Origin: Betaproteobacteria bacterium
GTDB lineage: Bacteria; Pseudomonadota; Gammaproteobacteria; Burkholderiales; UBA3065
Assembly: GCA_009927815.1 (NCBI GenBank)
Contig: RFMI01000062.1
Location: forward strand, 1-44,025
Direction: 5' to 3'
Length of the DNA: 44,025 nt
How positions within the stretch are numbered: the stretch's first letter is position 1; every line of letters starts with the position of its first letter. Shown one piece after another: positions 3,332 through 41,660 of the stretch. Position numbers and translations under genes: made by a program. Under the pieces are notes generated by a model that searched no databases, was not told the DNA's origin, and was given only the letters and a program-made list of their open reading frames with translations.

Positions 3332-3335
3332 CAAC

Positions 3336-3363
3336 AAAAAACCCGGCCGAGGCCGGGTTTTTT
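3336..3363. terminator. Bidirectional rho-independent terminator between purA and rplI
   Basis: A GC stem (ACCCGGCC / GGCCGGGT) with a two-base GA loop is flanked by six A on the left and six T on the right, so it can stop purA transcription on plus and the rnr-rplI operon on minus. It lies 4 bp after the purA stop and 14 bp before the rplI stop. Confidence 0.93.
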
Positions 3364-3377
3364 GTCGTGTGCGGCGA

Positions 3378-29469: not shown

Positions 29470-32297
29470 CTAGCGCACCTTGTTTGCGACGGCTGATTCG
29501 ATGGTCTCAAACAACTTGATCTTGTCGATGGGTTTGCTCAGGACCGCATTGGCGCCCGCTTCGAACACGCGGTCGCGGTCGTCACTCATGGTGTCAGCCG
29601 TGAACGCGATGATGGGCAGCAGTTGTCCATGAGGCATCTCGCGGATCAGGCGTGTGGCTTCGATGCCACCCATGACCGGCATACGCATGTCCATCAGCAC
29701 CAGATCGAAGGCCTGCGCCGGGGCGCTGGCCGCCCGCACCTGTTCGACCGCCTTGCTGCCATCCTCGGCTTGCGAGACCCTGGCATTGGCCCGCTCCAGC
29801 ATGGTGCTCACCACCTCGCGGTTGATGATGTTGTCGTCCACAACCAAGATGCGCAGCCCCGAGACGTCTGCCAATGGGCGCTCTTCGTTGGATGCGTTGC
29901 CCTGGTCGATTTGCGCCACTGACGCCAATTCAACTTCGGCCCAGAAGCGCGATCCCTCACCGGGGGTGCTCGAGACGCCGACCATGCCTTGCATCAGTTG
30001 CGCCAGTTCGCGGCAGATATAGAGTCCGAGACCGGTGCCACCGTATTGGCGGGAGGTCGACGCATCGGCCTGCACGTAGGGCTGGAACAGTCGCTGCTGC
30101 GCGTCCGTGTCGATGCCGACACCGGTGTCGATCACTTCAAAGCGGAAGCGGTTGGCGCCGACCAGTTTTACGCTGAGGCGAATACTGCCGTTGCTGGTGA
30201 ACTTGAGGGCGTTGCTGATGAAGTTGGCAAGGATCTGGCGCAGCCGAACCGGGTCGCCAAACACGAGGCGTGGCAATTTTGGGTCGGCGTCGTAGACGAA
30301 ATCGAGTTCGCGGGCGCGTGCGATCGGCCCATACAGGCCACGAACGCCATTCATCAGTCCGGGCAGATCGAAGATCACCTGTTCCAGTTGCAGTCGGCCG
30401 GCTTCGATCTTGGTCATGTCGAGCACTTGCGTCATCAGGTCGGCCATTTCCTTGCCACTGATGACGATCTGGTTGATGTAGCTGTTGCGGACCGTGTGAT
30501 CGAGGTCAGGCGAACGCGCCAGTTCGGCCATACCGAGGATGCCATTGAGCGGAGTGCGCAGTTCGTGGTTGATGGTGGCGAGGAACTCGGTCTTCGCGTG
30601 ATTGGCGTTGCGCTGGCTCTCGGCCAAGGCTTCGGCCGCTTCACGGCGATCGCGTTCGAGGCGTAGCGATCTTCCAGCATTTGCCGGTTCTCGCTCTCCA
30701 GGCGCTGCGCCCGGACAATGGCCTGCTCGGCGAGTTTGCGTTCGGTGATGTCCGCGACCACACCGAGCACGCGTGTCGCCCGTTGGTCGTCTTTGAACAC
30801 GCCGGCATAGGCCGACAACCAGTGTTCGGAGCCGTCCGGCCAGATCACCCGGAACTCGCCATGCCAATCGCGCTGAGCGGTGATCACCGTGTCCTGCCAA
30901 CCTTTGAGGACGGCATCACGCTCGTCGGGGTGTATGGCCCGGTAATAGGTGTCGAGGGTCCAGAGCGGTTGCAGGCTGGTGTAGCCGTAACACTGGTCGT
31001 GGCGTAAAGACCGTTCGAAGGTGCCGCTGTCGATATTGAGCTCCCACGTGCCCATGTGGGCGACGTCCATCGCGTAGCTCAAGCGGGTTTGGCTCTCCCG
31101 CAACGCCGCCTGGGCGCGCTCACGCTCGGCGATGTCACGTGCGATCAGTGAGCCACCGACGATCTTGTTGCTCGCGTCGAAGATCGGCGACATGGTCACG
31201 GACACGCTGACCGAGCGACCGTCCCGATGGCGACGTGTGGCGTCGTAGGGCGGGACACGCAAGCCGCCGGCCAGGTTACCCAGAATGATGGATTCCTCAG
31301 GGGCTTGGTCGTCAGGCACCAGCATGAGGACTGATTTGCCGATCGCCTCATTGGGCGCGTAGCCGAACAGATCCTGGGCAGCACTGTTCCAACTGACGAT
31401 GGTTCCGTCCAGATCCATCGACACGATTGCGTCGGTCGACGATTCGACGATCTTAGCCAGCCGGTCGGCTGCGCTTTCGGCGGTTTTGAGTTGGGTCTCG
31501 TCGCGGATCAGCATGGTCAGGCCGCGCAGTTCGCCGGCCTCGCTGCGGTTCAGCGCGCAGGTCAGTGACACCATGGTTCGGACCCCTTGGGCCGACTCCA
31601 GGCACAAGCTGTGCTCGGTGGCGTGGTCGCCGGCCAAGGCATGGATCGATTCGAACAGCCGGCCGTCGGTGTCGCTGCCCGTGGCGACGCGGAACACCTC
31701 GGCCAGGCGGCGCTGAGCGGCTTGTGTCAGTTGCCAACCCGTGATGCGCTCGGCGACCGGGTTCATGCGCAGTATCCGGCCGTCGGCATCGGTGGTGATG
31801 AAGCCGGCCCCGATCAAGTCGAGTGTGGCTGACAAGCTCTGTTCTGTGTCCGCCAGGTGTTCCTCGGCGGTTTTGCGTTTGGCGACTTCGCTTTCAAGTG
31901 CCGAGATGGCGTCTTGCAATTGTTTGACCGACGGGATCTTGAGGATCTTCGGCAGCAGTGGCCACAGCCCGACCGCGGTGGCGACGGAGACCACAGCGGT
32001 GAACATCTTGGTTACCGCGTGCAGGCCGTAGTCGGGTGTCCAGATGGTCCAGATGTCCATCACGTGGGTCGTGCCACAGGCAAAGATGAAGACGCTGAAC
32101 AGCACCGCAACCCACCGGTACGGCACGTCCGGCCGCCGGCGCAGGAACGCAACGATTACCGCAGGGATCGAGAAGTAGGACAGGGCCACCACCGCGTCAG
32201 CGGTGACCATCGACCAGAGCAGAGTCGGGGTCCAGGTGAAGCAATACCCGTGCGGCAAATAACCTTGGCGGCCAAGAAAATCGCCCATGAACTCCAT
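29470..32297 (-). CDS. Ethylene-receptor-like hybrid sensor histidine kinase (apparent frameshift near 30660)
   Basis: This is a membrane-bound hybrid kinase of about 942 aa. Residues about 24-112 form a three-helix domain that matches plant ETR1: Asp34, Tyr41, Pro45, Ile71, Cys74 and His78 occupy the spacing of ETR1 Asp25, Tyr32, Pro36, Ile62, Cys65 and His69 (seen in ALSYFSIP and FIFACGTTH). A short coiled coil and three PAS domains follow, then HisKA with His578 (LATINHELRTPLNGILGM), HATPase_c (DPVRLRQILANFISNALKFT, GGTGLGLYI) and a receiver domain with Asp870 (FDLVLMDMRMPVMGG). One missing C (GG at 30660-30661 on plus) breaks the frame between PAS3 and HisKA; adding it gives RYALERDRREAAEALAE. 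ATG 32297 has GGAGAG before it; ATG 32348 is an alternative. Confidence 0.92.
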
Positions 32298-32364
32298 TCG
32301 CGGCTCTCCGTGAAGTCTGTCGGTCAGTGTTGTGGCGAATCTCGCCATCGCGCCTGCGAGAGGG

Positions 32365-32657: not shown

Positions 32658-33095
32658 TCAAGCGGCCTCGGCGGGGCTTTCGCTGCGCCGCACCCGCAAG
32701 GTGAGGTCGATGCGTTCTACTTTGAACCCACGGGCAATGCGCTCCAGCGGGAAGCCTTGCAGCATGTCCAGCGGGATGTCGTGCAAGGTATCGCTGTCGA
32801 TGTCGTGGATGTGCAGGTGCGGTTCGGTATTGGGGTCATACAGCGTGACGCCCGCGCGCGAAGTGACGGTTTGCAACAGGCCTCGATCCACGAACAGGTT
32901 GAGCGTGTTGTAGACCGTCGCTCGAGAGATCCGTGGTCGGCTCTGGTTGATCACGGTGAACACCTGCTCGGCAGACAAGTGCTCTCGGCGCGTCATGATT
33001 AATTCAGCGATTCGCAAACGCGGCGAGGTGGTGTTGACGCCGATGCTGCGCAGGAGGCCCGTTAAGGCATCAGGGCTGATGAGGGGTCCGTTCAT
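32658..33095 (-). CDS. Fur-family transcriptional regulator (Irr/PerR-like)
   Basis: This 145-aa protein has the Fur-family winged helix (NTTSPRLRIAELIMTRREHL, RISRATVYNTLNLFVDRGLL) and a dimerisation domain with DPNTEPHLHIHDIDSDTLHD. The HHxHxxC metal motif of Fur is replaced by HLHIHD, and the C-terminal CxxC structural zinc pairs are absent; the NTxxHxH layout is closest to the Irr (haem/iron response) and peroxide-responsive branches. The ligand is therefore uncertain. A perfect palindrome (33119-33142) and a TTGACA -35 box upstream suggest autoregulation. It lies between the MazG-like gene and tRNA-Thr, all on minus. The start ATG 33095 has AAAGGA before it. Confidence 0.85.
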   Translation of the reverse strand: MNGPLISPDALTGLLRSIGVNTTSPRLRIAELIMTRREHLSAEQVFTVINQSRPRISRATVYNTLNLFVDRGLLQTVTSRAGVTLYDPNTEPHLHIHDIDSDTLHDIPLDMLQGFPLERIARGFKVERIDLTLRVRRSESPAEAA

Positions 33096-33538: not shown

Positions 33539-33665
33539 TGCTGTCGGGGTGGCGCGAGTGTCGCACGCCGCTCTGCCTTGCAGGCCCGAACCGTCCCAGG
33601 TGACGGTTGGGATCGCCGCGATTGGCGGTTGACCGGGTGGTGGTCTCGCGCGCACCCCGACAGCA
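33539..33665. promoter_or_regulatory. Divergent control region bounded by a 20-bp inverted repeat
   Basis: The arms are 33539-33558 (TGCTGTCGGGGTGGCGCGAG) and 33645-33665, whose reverse complement is the same sequence with one extra C after TGCTGTCGGGGTG. The first arm begins 14 bp from the MazG-like ATG and the second ends 17 bp before ATG 33683. Between them lies a smaller palindrome AACCGTC-N6-GACGGTT (33589-33608). The arrangement fits a shared operator for two divergent genes. No gene is visible in the region. Confidence 0.5.
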
Positions 33666-33682
33666 GTTGTATGCTCGCCGAC

Positions 33683-34846
33683 ATGAGCGATTCCTTCATT
33701 GACCGCCATCAAGACAACTGGACCGCGTTGCGCCGTGATCTGCACGCGCATCCGGAGCTGGCGTTCGCCGAGACACGCACCAGCGATCGTGTTGCCGAGC
33801 GCCTGGCCTTGGCCGGTCTCGAGGTGCGACGGGGGCTCGCGGGTACTGGTGTGGTCGGGTTGCTGCAGGGACGACGCCCCGGTCCGATGATTGGTCTGCG
33901 TGCCGACATGGACGCATTGCCCCTGCACGAGGCCAACGACTTTGCTCATCGCTCCACCCATGCCGGCCGCATGCACGCCTGTGGTCACGATGGCCATACC
34001 GCGATGCTGGTGGCCGCCGCCGAGACGCTGGCTGACGCGCCAGACTTTGCCGGCGCGGTGGCGTTCATCTTCCAGCCCGCCGAAGAGGGCGATGGCGGCG
34101 CGCGGCAGATGATGGACGAAGGCCTGTTCGCCGAATTCCCCTGCGAGGAGGTCTACGCGCTGCACAACTGGCCTGGCCTCGCGGCGGGCAGTTTTGCCGT
34201 GCACCGCGGCCCGGTCATGGCCTCGGCCGACCAGTTCGACATCGTCCTGCATGGCCATGGCGCGCACGCCGCGATGCCACATCAGGGGCTGGATCCGGTC
34301 ACTGCCGCTGCGGCCCTCATCCAAACCTTGCAGACCGTGGTCAGCCGACGCACCGACCCGCTCAAGGCGGCGGTGGTGAGCGTCACCCGCATGCAAGCCG
34401 GCGAGGCCTACAACATCATCCCCGAGTCGGTGACGGTTGGCGGAACGGTGCGGGCGCTGGACAACGGGGTTCGCGATGCGCTGCAGCTGCAAATCAGCGA
34501 GGCAGCTGCTGGCATCGCAGCGGCGCATGGTTTGCGGGCCACGGTGGAGTACCGGCGCGGTTATCCGGCCACCGTCAACCACCCGACCCAAGCCGATTTC
34601 GCGCGTGCCATTGCCGAGGAGGTGGCTGGCCGGGAGTCGGTGCGCACAGATCTGGCGCCGTCGATGGGCGCCGAGGATTTCGGCTTCATGCTGATGGACA
34701 AGCCGGGCGCCTACTTGTGGATTGGCAACGGCCCGGGCAGTGGTGGCTGCATGCTGCACAACCCGCACTACGACTTCAACGACGCGATCCTGCCGCTGGG
34801 CGTGCGCTTCTGGCGCGCCTTGGTGCAGCGTCGCTTGCCGCTCTAG
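33683..34846 (+). CDS. M20-family amidohydrolase (hippurate/N-acyl-amino-acid hydrolase type)
   Basis: This is a dinuclear-metal M20D peptidase-like hydrolase that removes acyl groups from N-acyl amino acids. The 387-aa protein has GLRADMDALPLHE (metal Asp), MHACGHDGHTAMLVAA (metal His), IFQPAEEGDGGARQMMDEG (catalytic and metal Glu) and the dimerisation-domain histidine in LHGHGAHAAMPHQGLDPV. The family includes hippurate hydrolases, carboxypeptidase Ss1 and plant auxin-conjugate hydrolases, so the substrate is open. ATG 33683 (MSDSFIDRH) gives the usual length; ATG 33671 is four codons earlier. It is divergent from the MazG-like gene and converges on pgi with a 7-bp gap. Confidence 0.9.
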   Translation: MSDSFIDRHQDNWTALRRDLHAHPELAFAETRTSDRVAERLALAGLEVRRGLAGTGVVGLLQGRRPGPMIGLRADMDALPLHEANDFAHRSTHAGRMHACGHDGHTAMLVAAAETLADAPDFAGAVAFIFQPAEEGDGGARQMMDEGLFAEFPCEEVYALHNWPGLAAGSFAVHRGPVMASADQFDIVLHGHGAHAAMPHQGLDPVTAAAALIQTLQTVVSRRTDPLKAAVVSVTRMQAGEAYNIIPESVTVGGTVRALDNGVRDALQLQISEAAAGIAAAHGLRATVEYRRGYPATVNHPTQADFARAIAEEVAGRESVRTDLAPSMGAEDFGFMLMDKPGAYLWIGNGPGSGGCMLHNPHYDFNDAILPLGVRFWRALVQRRLPL

Positions 34847-38316: not shown

Positions 38317-39311
38317 GCGGCCGCGACCTCGGTGACCAGCTCGGGTCCCCGGTAGATCAGACCGGTGTAGACCTGCACCAGGCTTGCGCCAGCTTCGAAC
38401 TTGGCGCGCGCGTCAGCCCCAGAGGCGATCCCACCGACGCCGATGATCGGCAGCGCCCCGTCGAGTCGTCGGGCGAGCGCGGCGAGCCGTTCAGTGCTGC
38501 GCGCGAACACCGGCCGCCCGCTCAGTCCGCCGGCTTCTTTGGCGAGCGGATGGCCTGCCACGGCAGCGCGGTCGAGTGTGGTGTTGGTGGCGATGACTGC
38601 GTCCATCGCGTGTCGCGTCAGGCGCATCGCGATGTCATCGAGTTGGGCGTCGTCGAGGTCGGGCGCGATCTTCACCGCCAGCGGCACGTAACGGCCGTGG
38701 TGGTCGGCCAGGCGGGTTTGCGTTTGCTTCAGGGTGGAGAGCAGGGTGTCGAGTTCGTCGCCATGTTGCAGGCTGCGCAAGCCTTGCGTGTTCGGGGAGC
38801 TGATATTGACCGTCACGTAATGGGCAAGCGGGTAGACAGCCTCCAGCGCGGTCCGGTAGTCGTCGACGGCGTGTTCGAGGGGCGTGGTCGCGTTCTTGCC
38901 GATGTTGATGCCCAGAATGCCCCGCCAGCGCGTCGCGGCGACGTTGGCGAGTAGCGCGTCGAGTCCGCCATTGTTGAAGCCGAGGCGGTTGATCAGTGCC
39001 TCGTGCTCTGGCAGACGAAAGATGCGCGGTTTGGGGTTTCCGGGCTGCGGCCGCGGTGTCACCGTACCGACTTCGATGAAGCCGAAGCCTAACGCCGCCA
39101 GACCGTCGATGTGCGCGCCGTTCTTGTCGAGTCCGGCGGCAAGGCCGACCCGATTCGGGAAGTCGATGCCCATGACCCGCGCACTGGCTCCCGGCGCCGG
39201 ATGCGGATGGCGAACAAGCCTGCCGAGTATGTCGACCCCGCGCAGCACCCAGTCATGGGCGGTCTCGGCATCGAGGGCGAAGAGGGCGGGGCGCAGCAGG
39301 GCGTAGCTCAT
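38313..39311 (-). CDS. pyrD: Dihydroorotate dehydrogenase (quinone), class 2
   Basis: PyrD oxidises dihydroorotate to orotate at the inner membrane using FMN and ubiquinone. The 332-aa protein has the N-terminal membrane-associating helices of class 2 ([20 protein letters not shown]), [20 protein letters not shown], the catalytic serine in [26 protein letters not shown] and the FMN-phosphate region [23 protein letters not shown] 39311 is chosen; an upstream frame adds an unconserved stretch that overlaps the ftsK promoter. It is divergent from ftsK with 52 bp between the starts and is cotranscribed with ygfA. Confidence 0.96.
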
Positions 39312-39363
39312 GCGGCGGATTGTACGGTCATCTTTGGCGGCCGATTGCCGGTATCCTTGCGCG

Positions 39364-41660
<2,297 letters not shown>

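Follow-up and report, generated by a model that had tools for sequence, protein, structure and literature searches.

The region between the divergent MazG-like (minus strand) and M20 amidohydrolase (plus strand) genes contains a 127-nt element with two inverted arms, and these arms most likely pair as the stem (P1) that closes a structured element specific to the genus. Our preferred reading, to which we give slightly less than even credence, is that the element would function as minus-strand RNA, as a structured 5' leader of the MazG-like mRNA closed by P1. The window is the whole stretch of 44,025 nt that was analysed (contig RFMI01000062.1, assembly GCA_009927815.1). The comparison set was composed of the window species and four other species of its genus (L002, L003, L004 and L005). 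The coordinates of the features are given in Table 1.

Table 1. Genes, repeat arms, hairpins and predicted signals around the element (window coordinates)
Feature	Position	Strand	Evidence or remark
Fur-family regulator, downstream of the MazG-like gene	32658..33095	-	PF01475 E 4e-20; syntenic in 5/5 species
MazG-like protein, 101 aa	33219..33524	-	PF03819 21.9 bits, just under the cut-off of 22
Proposed structured RNA element (P1 and inner hairpins), 127 nt	33539..33665	-	fold rank, z-scores, pair counts
Left arm	33539..33558		TGCTGTCGGGGTGGCGCGAG; 3' strand of stem P1 if minus-strand RNA
Inner hairpin HP1	33586..33611		CCGAACCGTC ... GACGGTTGGG; two pairs changed on both sides
Inner hairpin HP2	33614..33630		about CGCCGCGATTGGCGG here; CATCGC-GAATG-GCGATG in a relative
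Right arm	33645..33665		5' strand of stem P1 if minus-strand RNA
Predicted minus-strand transcript start	33664..33664	-	same -10 box read on the other strand; 18-bp rule of PMC10268837
TATGCT, proposed -10 box of the M20 gene	33670..33675	+	inside invariant CAGTTGTATGCT
M20 family amidohydrolase, 387 aa	33683..34846	+	PF01546 E 1e-46; TIGR01891 over cut-off

The gene order Fur / MazG-like // M20 is kept in all four congeneric species, and a tRNA-Thr lies beyond the Fur-family regulator, on the MazG-like side of the element. A survey of 150 genomes of the order detected the MazG-like gene in this genus only. The first-pass annotation had proposed a divergent control region here, and the region is indeed conserved between the MazG-like and M20 genes in five species. 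A stretch within the Fur-family gene (32861-32987) is among the best plus-strand folders of the window after GC correction.

The inverted repeat is real and has the form that had been described, i.e. 20-bp arms with one extra base in the right one, 86 bp apart. The right arm is the reverse complement of the left arm plus this extra base: the outer ends pair at 13 of 13 positions (33539-33551 with 33653-33665) and seven more pairs follow past a 1-nt bulge. A dinucleotide-shuffled window contains on average 0.65 inverted repeats of 13 bp with arms at most 150 bp apart; none of 60 such shuffles contained the 13+7 form. The left arm is located 14 nt from the MazG-like ATG (33524) and the right arm 17 nt from the M20 ATG (33683), with an alternative in-frame ATG (33671) 5 nt beyond the arm. 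Genome-wide search, suggested by the first-pass annotation, gave a single match for the whole element in its own 1.76-Mb genome and no dispersed copies; the 13-mer of the arm has one additional exact copy, on a different contig.

Conservation of the arms in related genomes, the other check suggested, was observed for both arms in all four congeneric species. TGCTGTCGG ... CCGACAGCA are found in the same place in each, the left-arm core TGCTGTCGG is invariant across the five species, and the right arm continues into the invariant CAGTTGTATGCT, so that about 20 bases are unchanging in five species. The arms are kept in spite of a DNA identity of only about 73% between species, and their distances to the start codons are near constant: 11-14 nt on the MazG-like side and 17 nt on the M20 side. 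The control consisted in tracing the 58 inverted repeats of the window (at least 9 bp) across the relatives. The element is the best conserved of the 58, as established in three relatives by automatic mapping and in L003 by direct reading. A 9-bp inverted repeat at 40617-40720 was kept in three of the four relatives; it lies within a long plus-strand ORF (39310-41163) and probably reflects coding conservation.

The span of the element is 111-113 nt in the relatives versus 127 nt in the window species. Among the four relatives the identity of the interior reaches 0.89, compared to 0.51 and 0.71 for the two adjacent intergenic stretches, and to 0.76 and 0.87 for the MazG-like and M20 genes in the same comparison: in its conservation the interior matches coding sequence. 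That of the window species is more diverged (0.52 to the relatives in this alignment). A reading frame through the element was considered and rejected, the lengths (127, 111 and 113) and the arm-to-start offsets breaking the frame between species. The record of L005 (CAMDGF010000004.1) is titled as a Klebsiella pneumoniae MAG, yet it is congeneric with this betaproteobacterial genome; this public record is probably mislabelled.

To characterize the fold, stretches of the window were ranked by GC-corrected energy. The element has the lowest folding energy of the 2,196 stretches of 127 nt on each strand, with GC correction as well. Its z-scores against shuffles are about -6.3 (minus) and -5.5 (plus) in the window species. 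Single-sequence values range from about -2.2 to -6.3 and are inflated because the segment was picked by its arms, so that the alignment tests weigh more. With column shuffles the z-score of the alignment is -5.4 on the minus strand, a value matched by none of 150 shuffles, and -3.5 for the plus strand. When P1 is left out, the remaining interior scores about -2.4 to -2.5 on either strand, with 3 of 150 shuffles as good. The near self-complementarity of the element makes the plus strand fold too; in the alignment and in four of the five species, the better fold is that of the minus strand.

Read by hand, P1 comprises 13 minus-strand pairs in all five species, with a single 1-nt bulge, in L005. 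Between species, position 10 varies from G-C to G.U, position 11 from G-C to A-U, and position 12 from C-G to U-A. The G.U pair, present on the minus strand in three species, corresponds to A.C in a plus-strand RNA or a DNA cruciform and so favours minus-strand RNA; its presence in three species may reflect a single evolutionary event. The helix that follows inside P1 (P2) has lost part of its pairing in the window species and is not kept there. In the model-fitted minus-strand alignment, 93% of cells are paired and five pairs are changed on both sides (0/500 shuffles), P1 and the hairpins staying paired through such changes, and the fit to the structure collapses once partners are slid. These counts, obtained from five sequences with a covariance model built on the same sequences, an alignment that favours structure and shuffles that ignore relatedness, support the structure without proving it. 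Two features by which cis-regulatory RNA leaders are recognized were found: a conserved fold with paired changes, of moderate weight with five sequences, and recurrence upstream of homologous genes, in 5/5 species of the genus.

The search for promoter signals pointed to TATGCT, which is the best plus-strand -10-like box of the region and is unchanged in five species. It lies exactly 7 nt from the ATG at 33683 in all species, most of these bases being variable. This arrangement fits a predicted leaderless M20 mRNA starting at about 33682; the in-frame ATG inside the box (33671), if used as start codon, would be an alternative reason for the conservation of the box. In bidirectional promoters, the starts are most often 18 bp apart (PMC10268837). 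Here -11A (33671) and -7T (33675) are complementary on the other strand, and the predicted starts, 33682 and 33664, are 18 bp apart; the T at -18 is absent on both strands and the -35 is weak or missing. The predicted start at 33664 corresponds to the outer edge of the right arm, which would place P1 at the 5' end of a minus-strand transcript, a coincidence that is suggestive only. No conserved strong minus-strand promoter was found across the five species, no intrinsic terminator at the element, and no Shine-Dalgarno before the MazG-like start.

According to the preferred reading, the minus-strand transcript would begin near 33664, launched by the symmetric box TATGCT/AGCATA as read on that strand, and the same box would drive a leaderless M20 mRNA on the plus strand. 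The arms would pair as P1, enclosing two hairpins and closing 11-14 nt ahead of the MazG-like start codon, and the folded leader would affect translation or stability of the MazG-like mRNA. We infer from sequence the transcription itself, its strand, both start sites and the effect on MazG-like expression. The complete arrangement, i.e. a genus-restricted leader having its 5' end at the divergent start of a symmetric -10 box, leaderless one way and with a folded leader the other, is possible and rather more doubtful than the leader as such. If true, it would be an undescribed structured RNA beside the MazG-like gene of small-genome betaproteobacteria, and a compact example of a bidirectional promoter that may yield one leaderless and one strongly structured mRNA. 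Its scope is narrow: one genus, and no ligand or partner known.

A serious rival, which we nonetheless consider rather unlikely, is that the arms are paired operators, one copy per divergent promoter, bound by a regulator that may loop the DNA. Divergent operator pairs with DNA looping carry the same sequence inverted at two divergent promoters; the resemblance here extends to the distance of about 100 bp, and the differences are the lack of a regulon signal in the genome, the conserved and foldable interior, and a regulator that is only hypothetical. In the M20 promoter, the right arm would then occupy the spacer between -35 and -10; the left arm would lie near the MazG-like transcript start, and the inner dyads would be further sites. 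The near-constant distances of the arms to both starts agree with this layout, as do the invariant -10-like box that the right arm abuts and a CAGAAT -10-like box that the four relatives have before the left arm. In the rest of the five genomes, however, the arm pattern is about as frequent as a reversed control (a regulator with a single target would be missed by this search), and the single exact extra copy of the 13-mer in the own genome was not seen as a promoter site. The core-to-core distances are 102-104 bp in the relatives and 118 bp in the window species, a difference that is no whole number of helical turns. In two lineages the two arms changed together, and two binding sites leave the coding-level conservation and the paired changes of the interior unexplained. 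The first-pass annotation had suggested a dimer bound to both arms and looping the DNA: such binding is possible, but we do not favour it, since arms that change together yet stay complementary, around a conserved and foldable interior, fit a base-paired stem better than independent operators. A Fur-type operator for the adjoining regulator was set aside as improbable, the arms being unlike AT-rich Fur boxes.

The other explanations carry less weight. A structured RNA read from the plus strand, either as M20 5' leader or as a separate small RNA, is improbable: the plus strand does fold, as the best of the window in the energy ranking and with a negative z-score in the alignment test, and the M20 start codon comes shortly after the right arm, but folding is better on the minus strand, a plus-strand P1 would contain A.C in three species, and the conserved -10-like box with its fixed spacing suggests an M20 mRNA start past the element. 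A little less probable still is a quasi-palindrome held complementary by replication template switching, with little function beyond the two promoters. Template switching can make stems and restore pairing in one event (PMC8794818), and the longer, more perfect stem of the window species could come from one such event; this accounts poorly for a core arm sequence that is itself invariant in five species, for an interior conserved like coding DNA in four species, and for the other inverted repeats of the window, which are not kept likewise. The proposal of the first-pass annotation that the arms are the ends of a decayed mobile unit draws on the general likeness of inverted terminal repeats, but the element is found once in the genome and at a fixed place in five species, and its inside is conserved instead of decaying, so that this origin is highly improbable. 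Integron attC-like ends were rejected as well, their core (GTTRRRY) not being fitted by GTTGTAT.

Comparison with known families was also carried out. Rfam gave no match to the window element up to E 5 and no meaningful match over the element in the relatives. Searching the order with the invariant 20-mer returned three 2-mismatch matches outside the genus, and a covariance-model search of 200 genomes returned two weak ones; all were treated as chance, and neither search gave a homologue outside the genus with real support. 6S RNA (RF00013), a bacterial RNA, is long and almost self-complementary like the element and broadly comparable to it in size, but the element has no match to this family, and a separate 6S-like match (C7, 40.7 bits, cut-off 46.4) is located elsewhere in the genome. 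With candidate structured RNA motifs (e.g. the 104 of PMC2864571) it shares a conserved intergenic fold upstream of a gene, paired changes and no known ligand or protein; it differs in being represented by five sequences of one genus, without Rfam match and known from sequence alone. Bidirectional sigma-70 promoters with a shared symmetric -10 (PMC10268837) are similar in their divergent genes, in the A/T at -11/-7 of both strands as in TATGCT, and in starts 18 bp apart, which are here only predicted; unlike them, the present region lacks the T at -18, has a -35 that is weak or absent, and would have a folded leader in addition.

Two further observations were made in the window. A strong hairpin, AAAAAACCCGGCC-GA-GGCCGGGTTTTTT, at 3334-3365 is predicted to be an ordinary bidirectional intrinsic terminator. 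An ORF at 30435-32348 (minus strand), recognized by eye as a PAS-type sensor protein, has C-terminal residues that look out of frame, and its end is overlapped by a long minus-strand ORF (29470-30900); a frameshift in the gene or in the assembly is possible.
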